Positions 4,835 to 24,365 of a DNA stretch of 33,261 nt are shown in pieces. Location: IMG/VR virus record IMGVR_UViG_3300043219_000036, positions 1 to 33,261 of that record; one strand, written 5' to 3'. This stretch comes from a virus. A program made the translations under genes and the position numbers. The number at the start of each line of letters is the position of its first letter. Positions within the stretch are counted from its first letter, which is position 1. Below the pieces are notes generated by a model, which searched no databases, was not told where the DNA came from, and saw only the letters and a list, made by a program, of their open reading frames with translations.

Positions 4835-6555
4835 TAAATTCTTCCTTGATTAGTATTGAATTTTTTTAATACAATGTTAATTTGATTCCCGGTAATACTA
4901 GTAACTAATTCCCGATCTTGTGCGTTTGTGTTGATTACATTAAAGGTTTGTGCATTTGCACCGCCTCCGGTTGATAAATTGCCTTTCGACACCCTAGAGC
5001 CTACCCCACTTATTGCGCCTCCAATGGCTACCAAAGCGACACCCGCCGCAATTGCTAACCCTGCTCCGATGGGTCCCAATCCTAGCGAAGTCCAAAACGC
5101 CTCTTGTGCTATTCCGTAAGCGATTAACATCTTACCGAACTCACCAAGAAAACCGCCTATTGTTTTTAATAATCTGGCCCCTAATTCCTCGATGTTGAAA
5201 TCACCCGCAAAAATAGCCTCCATAGCCGCGCCAAATTCATCAGCAATAGAAAGTATGCCGTCAATTATTAAATTGTCTAAGTCTTCGCCTAATTGCCTCC
5301 AATCAGATAAATAGTCTGCTGTAAACGCATCCAATTGTTCACTCATCCGATTAAAGAATGATTCCATGTTTGCCAATCCTGATTCTGGATCAAATGGCAA
5401 TCCTATCTGCGGAACGTCTCCACGCGTTGCCATAGTCTCAGGCGTTGCACCTCTCGCTGATCTTAATGTGGTAAGTGATTTAATTAGTTCTTCATTGGCT
5501 TTTATCTGAGCTAGTGTTTTTTGAATCTCTGTACCTTGCTCTACGTTGTATAATTCTAGGGACTCTTTTAAATCGTCTGTTTCGGCTTTTAATTCGCCAA
5601 TGGTTTTTACGTGTAATGATTGTGCTATCAATAAATCCTGCTCTGCTGCTATTTGATTTCTTGATGAATTATCATCAATAGCCGCCTGTTCTTTTTGTTG
5701 TTTAGCTAACTTCTTTTCAGCCTCCTCCCTTGCTTTGACTTGTTTTACTATCTGTTCGGCTCTTTTGTCAAAAAGCTCAAACGCAATTGCCCACTTCTCT
5801 AATGTAGTTGCGTAATCAGAAGTCCAAACAACCATTATGTCACTAGTCTTTTGCAAGCTGTCTCCAATAGTTTCTATTAATGTTTTATTTTCAGATAGTT
5901 TTAGTTTAAGGTTATCCCAATTAGCGGTAAGAGTTGCCACCTTAATAGCATTAGTATCTATTATCTTTCCACTCTCTGCCATTGACTCAGCGGCTATCCT
6001 TCCAACTGCTGCTGCAATATCTGAAACTTTAGCAGACTCAAACCCGACCCCTTCTAATTGTTTCCGTAGTTCAATCGCTGAAATTCCTAAGTTGTCAAGG
6101 ATTAAAGGAGACTTTCTACCGATACCTGTTACAATTGAGTTAACAAGGAAATCTACTGACTCCCCCGTTTCTTGTGCGCGTTTAGTTGCAAACTCAAATA
6201 AATTAGCCAAGTCCTCTATCGGCAGCCCTAAATTCTTGGCACTTACCGCACGTTTCATTAATTCTAATTCACCAACAGTTCCGGCGGTTGCTTCCTGTAA
6301 ATCCTTTAACGTATTATCAGAAGCCATGCGATTAAACGCATCCCTTACACCTTCAGCGACACCTCCAATCATCACAAGCTCTTTACCAAAAGCAACGATC
6401 TGAGTAACGGCAAAAGCACCTGCGATCAAACCCCCAATCTTCTTTAAACCATTACCAAAGACATTGGTTTTCTTTTGCGCCTTGTCAATACCCTTATTGA
6501 AAGATGTTGAGTTGAGTCCTAATTTTACAAATAAGTCTGATAATTTGCTAGCCAT
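4834..6555 (-). CDS. Tail tape measure protein, 573 aa
   Basis: The start MASKLSDLFVKLGLNSTSF followed by a KGIDKAQKK helix is the typical beginning of phage tape measure proteins. The protein is mostly helical, with a charged coiled-coil stretch (about 265-370) and a hydrophobic glycine/alanine-rich segment (about 470-520) of the kind that becomes membrane-active at DNA injection. The tape measure sets tail length and is packed inside the tail tube. At 573 residues it is short for the family, predicting a tail below about 100 nm if the usual proportionality of roughly 1.5 Angstrom per residue holds. The gene lies directly after the frameshifted chaperone pair, the classical siphovirus order. 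Its start overlaps the end of the upstream chaperone reading frame by 8 nt. Confidence 0.92.
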   Translation of the reverse strand: MASKLSDLFVKLGLNSTSFNKGIDKAQKKTNVFGNGLKKIGGLIAGAFAVTQIVAFGKELVMIGGVAEGVRDAFNRMASDNTLKDLQEATAGTVGELELMKRAVSAKNLGLPIEDLANLFEFATKRAQETGESVDFLVNSIVTGIGRKSPLILDNLGISAIELRKQLEGVGFESAKVSDIAAAVGRIAAESMAESGKIIDTNAIKVATLTANWDNLKLKLSENKTLIETIGDSLQKTSDIMVVWTSDYATTLEKWAIAFELFDKRAEQIVKQVKAREEAEKKLAKQQKEQAAIDDNSSRNQIAAEQDLLIAQSLHVKTIGELKAETDDLKESLELYNVEQGTEIQKTLAQIKANEELIKSLTTLRSARGATPETMATRGDVPQIGLPFDPESGLANMESFFNRMSEQLDAFTADYLSDWRQLGEDLDNLIIDGILSIADEFGAAMEAIFAGDFNIEELGARLLKTIGGFLGEFGKMLIAYGIAQEAFWTSLGLGPIGAGLAIAAGVALVAIGGAISGVGSRVSKGNLSTGGGANAQTFNVINTNAQDRELVTSITGNQINIVLKKFNTNQGRI

Positions 6556-12340: not shown

Positions 12341-12412
12341 AAGCATCTAGCTCAGTGATTAGAGCATCCCACTAATAACGGGTACGCGTTGGTTCAATTC
12401 CAACGGTGCTTT
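12341..12412 (+). tRNA. tRNA-like gene, anticodon AAT by position (Ile?), antisense to the late operon
   Basis: The acceptor AAGCATC pairs over 7 bp with GGTGCTT (one T-G pair). Next come TA, the D-arm GCTC/GAGC, an anticodon arm, a 4-nt variable loop (ACGC) and the T-arm GTTGG-TTCAATT-CCAAC. The anticodon loop reads CTAATAA, placing AAT at positions 34-36. The anticodon stem holds only three GC pairs, flanked by T-T and A-C mismatches, and the D-loop lacks the usual G18G19 pair. No 3' CCA is encoded, as is common in Bacteroidota. A34 is rare in bacteria outside tRNA-Arg(ACG), so the identity is uncertain. It lies in a 119-nt gap between minus-strand genes and has its own promoter. Confidence 0.75.
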
Positions 12413-16764: not shown

Positions 16765-17051
16765 TAAGTTAGTTTATTTTCAAAGTAAACAACTACTGCC
16801 GGATTAACATATCCTATATCATCGTTTGCAAATACTATTTTTGCGCCTATTCTCCAAGTGCCATGAGTTGTCAAGGTATTAGGCATCTTATAAGTGATTA
16901 CATTGTTGTCTGTATCTACGTTTGTAGGCTCAACGTCAACAACCAATGATAAATCTGGCTTTCTATATTCAATCGTTACGGTAGCATCCACTAAACTTTC
17001 AGTGGTTGCCATTGAAACTGTATAATCTTGACCTGCTACTGGATTACTCAT
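16764..17051 (-). CDS. Beta-sandwich structural protein, 95 aa
   Basis: The protein is composed of alternating strands (YTVSMATTESLVDATVTIEYRK, VITYKMPNTLTTHGTWRIGAKIVF) and resembles the small Ig-like or BppU-N-like domains found on phage capsids and baseplates. It lies between the repeat protein gene (8 nt overlap) and the terminase genes. In related phages this position often holds decoration or adhesion proteins. No enzymatic motif was seen. The assignment as a virion accessory protein is inferred from operon position and composition. Confidence 0.55.
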   Translation of the reverse strand: MSNPVAGQDYTVSMATTESLVDATVTIEYRKPDLSLVVDVEPTNVDTDNNVITYKMPNTLTTHGTWRIGAKIVFANDDIGYVNPAVVVYFENKLT

Positions 17052-17913
17052 TCTTATTTTGTATTGTTACATTACAACAATTGTGCATAGGTACAAATAT
17101 AATATTTTCTTGTGACCTATTCAAATTTACATCCATCATTATATTCGAGCCGAATAATTCAAAAGATTGATTCATTACCTCAAAGTCGCCTGATAAAGTT
17201 TGTGTTTGAAATAATCCATTCCCTTCTATTGTGTGAATCTGATATATTAAACCGCTTTCAATTGATTGGGTTTGGTTTAAATTAACTCCTGTTATTTCGT
17301 TGACTTGTGTTAACAATCCTACATCTAAACTATTCGATTGATTTATATCTTGACCCTCTATTATGTGAGTTTGGGAAATACTACCTATTTGTATAGTTTG
17401 ATTTTGGGTTAAGTATTCACCTGAGAATGTAGATTCAGTTGATAAAGTACCGTTGTTTAGTGTTTGACTTTGTTCTAAGTTATCGCCTTGAATTAAGTTA
17501 ATCTGGGATATTACACCGCTTTCTAAAGTATGATTCTGATTAGTGTTATCTCCTGCGATTAGATGGTATTGACTTATTAAACCCTCTCTAGTGTTTTGGA
17601 TTTGTGTTAAATCTTCTCCTATTATAGTCTGAACCTGTTCAATCAGTCCACTAGTTACTGTTTGGTTTTGGGTTAAATAATTTCCCTGTATTTCATAAGT
17701 CTGTATTATAACACCCATTAAAAGTGTCTGAGATTGGCTTAAATTATCACCTATTATATCTATCTCAATGTCTTGAATTATCTCACCCGTTTCTATTGAT
17801 TGACTTTGTAATAAGTTCAGTCCTTGAATGACAATCTCCTGTGAGAATGAACCATCTGTGACGCTTTGGCTTTGGGTTAAATCATTTCCTAATATTTTAA
17901 CAGGCTTAGCCAT
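17044..17913 (-). CDS. Tandem 22-residue repeat protein (predicted beta-solenoid), 289 aa
   Basis: Residues 9 to about 250 consist of about eleven copies of a 22-residue unit with consensus G-x-x-L-T-Q-x-Q-(T/S)-(L/V/I)-x-x-G-x-(I/L)-x-Q-x-x-x-I-x. The spacing is exact in most copies; one has 24. Short alternating hydrophobic and Gln/Ser/Thr positions with a Gly per turn predict a regular right- or left-handed beta-solenoid. The C-terminal 35 residues differ (VPMHNCCNVTIQNKNE) and may be a cap. Similar 'LTQsQtv' repeats occur in other phage structural proteins with unknown role. It is likely a head fibre or surface spike. It begins one base from the stop of the upstream gene. Confidence 0.75.
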   Translation of the reverse strand: MAKPVKILGNDLTQSQSVTDGSFSQEIVIQGLNLLQSQSIETGEIIQDIEIDIIGDNLSQSQTLLMGVIIQTYEIQGNYLTQNQTVTSGLIEQVQTIIGEDLTQIQNTREGLISQYHLIAGDNTNQNHTLESGVISQINLIQGDNLEQSQTLNNGTLSTESTFSGEYLTQNQTIQIGSISQTHIIEGQDINQSNSLDVGLLTQVNEITGVNLNQTQSIESGLIYQIHTIEGNGLFQTQTLSGDFEVMNQSFELFGSNIMMDVNLNRSQENIIFVPMHNCCNVTIQNKNE

Positions 17914-22191: not shown

Positions 22192-22234
22192 TGACAAATA
22201 TCATGTTTTTCTAAAAATATTAACCGTTACTTGC
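22192..22234 (+). promoter_or_regulatory. Early composite promoter, copy 1 (divergent region)
   Basis: TGAC-AAAT-ATCA at 22192-22203, TG, 21 nt, then TTACTTGC at 22227-22234. The right half-site has one change from GTCA. The ATG of the 103-aa gene is 15 nt after the box, and the leader (GCTGAAAATTAAACGAT) is nearly the same as that of copy 3. Confidence 0.75.
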
Positions 22235-23305: not shown

Positions 23306-23337
23306 TTTGCACACCTCAATAAGATTTCGTTACTTTG
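23306..23337 (+). promoter_or_regulatory. Host-type promoter of the candidate structured RNA
   Basis: TTTG (23306-23309), 20 nt, TTACTTTG (23330-23337). One mismatch to TAnnTTTG. The palindrome of the early promoters is absent here, so this unit would follow the host polymerase directly. The predicted start is around 23342, at the base of the first long stem. Confidence 0.65.
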
Positions 23338-23341
23338 CCAG

Positions 23342-23700
23342 TGAATGATAGATTTGAAATCAAATAGAGTAAACAATATTTCTTTGACAGAGGTCAGAGC
23401 TATCATTCAAATTAAATCCTTTCAGTTCATTCTGGAGGGATTTTCTGGTTTGGTAGGAGGATGAAATGATTTAGCAGCAACCAAACTAAATGTGCTACTG
23501 CGGGGATTGGGGAAGCACTATCCGAGTATAAGATGGACGAGGAGAAACCATACGGCTCTTACAAGGCTAAAACGAATGCCATAAGTTAAATAGTTGTAAG
23601 TCTATTTAACCGACACGATGAAAGTTCTACAAGTTCAGAGGTAAATTATCGTAAGGAATACTAATTCTGATAATACAGTTATTAGGATTAGTATATCCTT
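23342..23700 (+). ncRNA. Candidate structured non-coding RNA, about 350 nt
   Basis: Between 23306 and 23808 no convincing gene exists. The stretch instead contains consecutive strong stems: GAATGATAG (23343-23351) with CTATCATTC (23400-23408), enclosing ATTTG-AAAT-CAAAT and TGAC-AGAG-GTCA hairpins; AAATCC/GGGATTT with inner CAG/CTG; ATTTAG/CTAAAT; GTGCT/AGCAC; ATGG/CCAT; GTTAAATAG/CTATTTAAC; and ATACTAAT/ATTAGTAT extended inward by six more pairs. GTTTGGT (in a loop) can also pair with downstream ACCAAAC as a pseudoknot. A promoter stands just upstream. The 3' end is uncertain: the last hairpin ends at about 23699 with no T-run. A 39-codon frame (23345-23464) could be a leader peptide. Confidence 0.55.
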
Positions 23701-23705
23701 AACTC

Positions 23706-23763
23706 TAAAAGATACAGTTCTAGGTAGTAGATTAAACTAAATACATAAACATGACTTCTGTCA
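23706..23763 (+). repeat. Direct repeat copy A upstream of early promoter 2
   Basis: The 21-nt core TAAAAGATACAG-TTCTAGGTA (23706-23726) and the following TTAAACTAAAT region recur at 24262-24319, each ending in the TGAC palindrome. The copies share the core exactly and most of the next 35 nt. This is a duplicated promoter module. Confidence 0.75.
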
Positions 23764-23794
23764 TATAAATTCTAATAAGTAATCTATAAATTGC
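23752..23794 (+). promoter_or_regulatory. Early composite promoter, copy 2
   Basis: TGAC-TTCT-GTCA at 23752-23763 is a perfect palindrome. TA, 21 nt and TAAATTGC at 23787-23794 follow. The box lies where a longer frame would have its TTG start, which is why the ATG at 23809 is taken for the gene. Confidence 0.78.
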
Positions 23795-23808
23795 ATAAAA
23801 ATAAAACT

Positions 23809-24081: not shown

Positions 24082-24258
24082 ATGCCAAAAGGAAAAGCAA
24101 ATAGCAGATTTAGTTTTAAGACTGACCCAAAAACAGGAAAGTCAAAAGGATGTCAATATGAAGATGGAACTTGGTGTAATTTGCCTAAATACAAAAGGTG
24201 CGAACACTGTATTAGATGCGTTGACGGAAGTAAGGCTTGTTATGTTACTGCGCTCTAA
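24082..24258 (+). CDS. Small cysteine-rich protein, 58 aa
   Basis: ATG at 24082, TAA at 24256-24258. The product MPKGKANSRFSFKTDPKTGK continues with GCQYEDGTWCNLPKYKRCEHCIRCVDGSKACYVTAL. Six cysteines, several in C-x2-C pairs, suggest zinc binding. The N-terminus is basic. It could be a small nucleic-acid- or protein-binding takeover factor. Not recognised. No promoter of its own was seen. Confidence 0.55.
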   Translation: MPKGKANSRFSFKTDPKTGKSKGCQYEDGTWCNLPKYKRCEHCIRCVDGSKACYVTAL

Positions 24259-24261
24259 TTT

Positions 24262-24319
24262 TAAAAGATACAGTTCTAGGTACTATTTTAAACTAAATTC
24301 AAAACACTGACTTTTGTCA
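24262..24319 (+). repeat. Direct repeat copy B upstream of early promoter 3
   Basis: The same 21-nt core as 23706-23726 is at 24262-24282, followed by a similar TTAAACTAAAT segment and the TGAC palindrome of promoter 3. The repeat starts 3 nt after the stop of the 58-aa gene, so the module has been copied as a unit between genes. Confidence 0.75.
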
Positions 24320-24350
24320 TGTTTATTCACCTTAGAATGTTGTTACTTGC
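24308..24350 (+). promoter_or_regulatory. Early composite promoter, copy 3
   Basis: TGAC-TTTT-GTCA at 24308-24319, TG, 21 nt, TTACTTGC at 24343-24350. The following leader (GCTTAAAATTAAACGAT) differs by one base from that of copy 1. The ATG of the 56-aa gene is 15 nt downstream. Confidence 0.8.
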
Positions 24351-24365
24351 TTAAAATTAAACGAT

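Follow-up and report, generated by a model that had tools for sequence, protein, structure and literature searches.

An uncatalogued small structured RNA with a predicted promoter and terminator of its own in flavobacterial phages

Results

The window analysed here is the whole 33,261-base virus record IMGVR_UViG_3300043219_000036 of IMG/VR. It contains a promoter-RNA-terminator unit of ~105 nt that is, as judged by sequence comparison, a genuine structured RNA. The same architecture occurs twice in a second virus, IMG/VR contig IMGVR_UViG_3300028835_000313 (L010), at positions 1120-1238 (copy a) and 6130-6244 (copy b). The small structured RNA is real and uncatalogued, and the phages that carry it are flavobacterial. 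We lean towards reading it as a stand-alone small noncoding phage RNA, which would most likely act in trans.

The terminase large subunit encoded in the window belongs to phrog_38 (E 8e-79), a common tailed-phage type, and the nearest relatives of its helicase-methyltransferase are found in phages of Flavobacterium columnare (47% identity). The loci L003/L092 are 99.9% identical to the window across 12.5 kb. L010 turned up in a search for relatives of a 176-aa neighbour protein, which is 76% identical between the two viruses. On the minus strand of the window, positions 17044-17913 encode a 289-aa protein composed of some twelve degenerate GDNLTQSQTLESGVISQ-type repeats.

Promoter, fold and terminator in the window

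Positions 23306-23808 had been put forward in a preliminary description as a gene-free stretch with its own host-type promoter. Both points held: apart from the beginning of the next gene, no open reading frame of at least 60 aa is present, and a Bacteroidota-type promoter lies at the start of the region (Table 1). The promoter consists of a -33 element TTTG (23306-23309), 21 nt, and a -7 box TACTTTG (23331-23337), the Bacteroidota consensus being TTTG at -33 and TAnnTTTG at -7, with the box at -12 to -5 (PMC9723704). With G23337 set at -5, the predicted +1 is position 23342, where a 10-bp stem begins. The promoter text ATTTCGTTACTTTGC is identical in L010 copy a, and the stop codons of the upstream genes in the window and in copy a both run into the promoter start TTTAATTTGC.

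Table 1. Predicted features of the RNA locus and the DNA behind it, in window coordinates.
Feature	Position	Strand	Basis
Bacteroidota-type promoter	23306..23337	+	Sequence, motif scan, consensus from PMC9723704
Predicted small RNA: three-way junction and terminator	23342..23447	+	+1 at 23342, 3' end near 23447; z score, covariation, model R1
P1 5' strand TGAATGATAG	23342..23351	+	Pairs with 23400-23409
P2 hairpin AAAT/ATTT, 17-nt loop with GTA; weakest helix	23357..23381	+	Structural alignment
P3 hairpin CTTTGAC-AGAG-GTCAGAG with invariant ACAGNGGT	23382..23399	+	Structural alignment
P1 3' strand CTATCATTCA	23400..23409	+	Pairs with 23342-23351
Intrinsic-terminator hairpin, 12 bp, then TCTGGTTT (weak T run)	23414..23443	+	Terminator-like site scan
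22-bp hairpin, membership of the RNA unsupported	23653..23700	+	z -6.2 for 23612-23700
Repeated, separate promoter element for the next gene	23700..23805	+	Repeat with 24256-24361; operator count; L010:1909-1973

The predicted fold of the window copy is a three-way junction (23342-23409), in which the stem P1 closes two hairpins, P2 and P3. This stem had been noticed earlier as one of 9 bp and in fact has 10 bp. Among gap-free Watson-Crick stems with a spacing of 45-110 nt, it is the longest in the window, although other stems in the window outscore it when G-T pairs and one mismatch are permitted. The 373-nt region folds better than its shuffles (z -5.65), and its first 111 nt (23339-23449) alone give z -4.2. 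The single-sequence fold of the window includes P1 and the terminator as proposed but draws the interior differently; hence, for the window, P2 and P3 draw their support from comparison with the L010 copies.

The terminator hairpin at 23414-23443 is the sole terminator-like site on the plus strand between 21600 and 25000 of the window, and its counterparts at L010:1206-1228 and 6210-6241 are two of the three such sites on the plus strand of L010. In all three copies the hairpin lies 1-6 nt behind P1; the T run that follows it in the window is weak (TTTTCTGG). Given that this terminator closes the stem module, the transcript is probably ~105 nt long and not 500 nt. The RNA was first described as large, without mention of the terminator, and this has to be revised to a covarying unit of ~105 nt.

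A phage-collection match inside the RNA region came from Tenacibaculum phage Gundel_1. There, a nearly identical terminator hairpin (ATCCTTTCAGTTAATTCTGGAAGGATTTTTTT, L004:3001-3029) stands ahead of a tRNA cluster, and only this hairpin is shared, not the RNA. A second related copy precedes an HNH gene (L004:3809-3839). The terminator hairpin of this type is thus recurrent in flavobacterial phages.

Covariation among three copies

Copy a of L010 is syntenic with the window, the upstream gene starting with MKHL in both, and copy b lies after a YqaJ exonuclease gene. P1 starts at or beside the predicted +1 in each copy. The P1 strands are unrelated in sequence between copies and complementary within each: TGAATGATAG/CTATCATTCA in the window, AAGGTGAATTTAG/CTAATTTCACCTT with one mismatch in copy a, and ATGATGTTTCAG/CTGGAACATCAT in copy b. 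P3 reads CTTTGAC-AGAG-GTCAGAG in the window, CTCAAC-AGCG-GTTGAG in copy a and CTCTAAC-AGAG-GTTAGGG in copy b, and its C-AGNG-G hairpin ACAGNGGU is invariant across the three.

In the structural alignment of the three copies, which was fitted by hand to the fold with N padding so that its pair counts lean towards that fold, 19 of 28 pairs show two-sided change and 91% of the cells are paired. When the 3' strands were slid by 1-3 columns as a control, 33-45% of the cells were paired and only 2-5 pairs showed two-sided change. Two-sided change affects 12 of the 15 aligned pairs of P1 and 4 of the 7 pairs of P3, in which 100% of the cells are paired. Independently of the alignment, each copy was folded singly (closing stem, inner hairpins and terminator hairpin), with z scores of -4.2 for the window, -5.6 for copy a and -9.3 for copy b. 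Taken together, the separate folds and the covariation rule out a chance origin of the fold. Compensatory changes, which had been named beforehand as the check on the RNA, are therefore present in P1 and P3 among three copies from two phages.

Searches for known families and further copies

When the window was searched with Rfam 15, including tmRNA, RNase P, introns, 6S, GOLLD and ROOL, only a tRNA at 12341 reached its gathering score. The best sub-threshold match in the region was Betaproteobacteria-1 (27 against 49.4 bits), and the L010 copies gave unrelated sub-threshold matches only. The structured RNA thus falls outside the Rfam families, as had been supposed.

A covariance model, R1, was built from the three copies, and its match to the window (23337-23414, 63.4 bits) is high by construction. 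Across ~2.2 Mb of related and pattern-matched loci, R1 detected no further copy; this applies to 80 IMG/VR loci that encode the 176-aa neighbour protein and to ~135 pattern-matched loci. Complete records of four isolate phages and ten IMG/VR contigs were covered as well, and among these R1 matched none but L010 and the virus of the window itself. Phages of F. columnare and Cellulophaga phi10:1/Nekkels share neighbouring proteins, but none has an R1 match. Scanning all IMG/VR contigs for two signature patterns brought up the known copies and, beyond these, chance matches only. No RNA copy was seen in 397 Flavobacteriaceae genomes, and 395 Bacteroidota genomes yielded one chance terminator hairpin only, both being weak negatives from a coarse first look; a pattern search of 397 genomes gave one match, which lacks the fold. 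With three copies in two viruses, the RNA family is rare or fast-diverging. The suggestion of a new phage RNA class stands to the extent that this is a new small family, so far from two phages only.

DNA behind the terminator

All three copies are followed by 250-400 nt of gene-free DNA behind the terminator. Structure had been described as running to 23700. The z score of the 373-nt region agrees with this, but the signal is uneven and comes from 23339-23449 and 23612-23700 (z -6.2), with strong hairpins at 23585-23700, whereas the G-rich middle is no better than its shuffles (z +0.3 for 23449-23579 and 0.0 for 23490-23580). In the predicted fold, the proposed GTTTGGT/ACCAAAC pairing makes a simple hairpin (z -0.66) instead of a pseudoknot, and L010 offers no counterpart of its sequence. 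Behind copy a, a 23-bp hairpin (1443-1499, z -7.2) lies at nearly the same distance from the terminator as the 22-bp hairpin of the window. However, their sequences are unrelated and part of the 3' arm of the window hairpin recurs in a neighbouring promoter repeat (L010:1909-1937), so the two are not counted as one conserved element. The hairpin is absent behind copy b, where there is no excess structure (z -1.0), which points to the small unit as the conserved one. As far as the sequences go, the minimal conserved unit is the promoter, the three-way junction and the terminator.

The next gene has an element of its own, with an operator TGACTTCTGTCA at 23752-23763 and a promoter-like box TAAATTGC at 23787-23794; the TAAATTGC box is also found at the gene that follows copy b in L010. 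This element is one copy of a 106-nt direct repeat (23700-23805 and 24256-24361, 75% identical) that carries operator and promoter for two small genes lying next to each other, and related sequence is present at L010:1909-1973. The operator palindrome TGAC-N4-GTCA has five exact matches in the window, against 0.23 expected. Sites ~30-50 bp upstream of several gene starts include exact ones at 23752, 24308, 27204 and 29357; with one change, the palindrome is found at 22192, 12290 and 13292 and also at L010:1987. Boxes such as TTACTTGC and TAAATTGC often come after it, and it resembles an operator used by a phage regulator of (perhaps middle) promoters. The DNA of P3 in the window (TGACAGAGGTCA, 23385-23396) also matches the palindrome exactly, a match that the L010 copies lack. 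Upstream of the RNA's own promoter in the window, the palindrome is absent.

A match between window 23479-23499 and L010:6104-6124 was set aside, as it falls in the promoter of copy b but the window site has no -7 box. In L010, a near-identical 28-bp repeat (GCAAGGGTATAAAGAAAAAG...) follows each of the two RNA copies within the gene-free DNA (1580-1607 and 6459-6486) and can be read as the short peptides LQGYKEKEMS and MQGYKEKDMS.

Discussion

Sequence comparison shows the conserved fold, the positions of the promoter and terminator and the second copy in L010; that the RNA is transcribed, has the proposed length, acts in trans and is recognised at its AGNG loop we infer as likely. For a stand-alone RNA, host RNA polymerase with the housekeeping sigma factor would start at 23342, the 5' end would be locked in the closing stem of the three-way junction, and transcription would halt at the intrinsic terminator near 23447, so that both ends would be protected. 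As the next gene comes with a promoter-like box of its own, the RNA unit would be insulated. The invariant C-AGNG-G hairpin ACAGNGGU, held by the junction, is a putative site for a protein, which may be RNA polymerase, an RNA-binding protein of the host or a protein of the phage. Alternatively, the P2 loop could act in trans by pairing with an mRNA, though a target scan with this loop did no better than shuffles. The promoter, like the presence of a second copy in a relative, points to an early role for the RNA, which is probably early and constitutive. An operator at the promoter of the next gene and none at that of the RNA fits an insulated, early or constitutive small RNA acting in trans. 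Counted against a stand-alone RNA is the gene-free DNA behind the terminator, which it leaves unexplained.

That DNA counts in favour of the main rival reading, a leader acting in cis, which we consider unlikely though worth keeping in mind. The structure at the start of the transcript would modify RNA polymerase or refold, and so set whether the terminator is obeyed, by put-like antitermination or attenuation; read-through, to be taken with the same reserve, would extend the transcript across the downstream hairpins. All copies have the order of a fold at +1, a terminator at once and then the gene-free DNA, the window and copy a have long hairpins at a similar distance, and two copies in one phage recall putL and putR of HK022 (PMC9378689). 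However, the next genes have their own promoter-like boxes, copy b has no downstream structure, and a conserved alternative pairing was not identified. Bolder, and offered as speculation with little expectation, is a protein-free RNA-polymerase-modifying element of Bacteroidota phages that would fold at +1, grip the polymerase with the AGNG hairpin and control the terminator, or host transcription in trans.

A coding origin is improbable. A short leaderless frame over the RNA could encode a leader peptide whose translation determines the fold, or a small protein that has decayed in two copies. Frames beginning at +1 to +4 are present in all three copies (39, 49 and 94 codons) and are longer than those of shuffled sequences in which the first 15 nt were kept (p 0.08, 0.02 and 0.001). 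They keep the same register to P3 in all three, an oddity that is not fully dismissed, and the window and copy b have SLTEVRA in common with synonymous changes only. However, these synonymous changes are the very letters that keep P3 paired, and the start codons lie inside the closing stem. By codon score, the frames of the window and copy b are in the zone where right and wrong frames overlap, and the copy a frame, like the window frame past its TGA, is at the wrong-frame mean. Peptide readings of the stretch had no match in Pfam, PHROGs, phages or 299 genomes. The decayed gene offered earlier as a second view is thus not favoured, since covarying stems lie between a promoter and a terminator, and since the score of the copy a frame is that of a wrong frame. 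Least probable of all is a single large structured RNA spanning the whole 500 nt, as the score of the whole region and its strong far hairpins are outweighed by the terminator, the middle 130 nt at shuffle level, downstream stems without sequence counterpart in L010 and the lack of excess structure behind copy b.

The start, end, fold and invariant loop of the preferred stand-alone RNA are predicted tightly enough for direct testing. If RNA polymerase or an RNA-binding protein of the host turns out to be what the RNA acts on, the RNA would give a handle on phage takeover of a host whose promoters are unusual and which has no Shine-Dalgarno signals; as a small regulatory RNA whose target is obscure, it would be a modest catalogue entry.

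Comparison with known phage RNAs

To our knowledge, few noncoding RNAs have been described in phages of Bacteroidota. GOLLD, ROOL and other large phage RNAs have several hundred nt. Like them, the present RNA is noncoding and in a phage genome, but the unit is only ~105 nt and has no Rfam match. The packaging RNA of phi29 is a three-way junction with paired ends, found in phi29-like phages that have their own packaging ATPase. It resembles the RNA reported here in being a phage RNA of similar size and the same overall shape; however, the window has an ordinary large terminase of phrog_38, its genome is not phi29-like, and no Rfam match was obtained.

Phage-encoded small regulatory RNAs have been reviewed (PMC12197685). 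Their general hallmark, a dedicated promoter and an intrinsic terminator around a noncoding, structurally conserved unit, is found here. Like those RNAs (PMC12197685), the present one is short and has no conserved protein; unlike them, it has a covarying three-way junction, comes from Bacteroidota phages and shares no sequence or Rfam family with them.

The put RNA of HK022 is ~70 nt long and forms two adjacent stem-loops without a common closing stem, acting in cis on RNA polymerase to suppress terminators (PMC9378689). The RNA described here likewise places a structure right behind a phage promoter and occurs in two copies per genome in L010. It differs in that P1 joins the two hairpins from +1 and a terminator follows at once, in three of three copies. 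By analogy, HK022 put would be the nearest working model for the cis reading.
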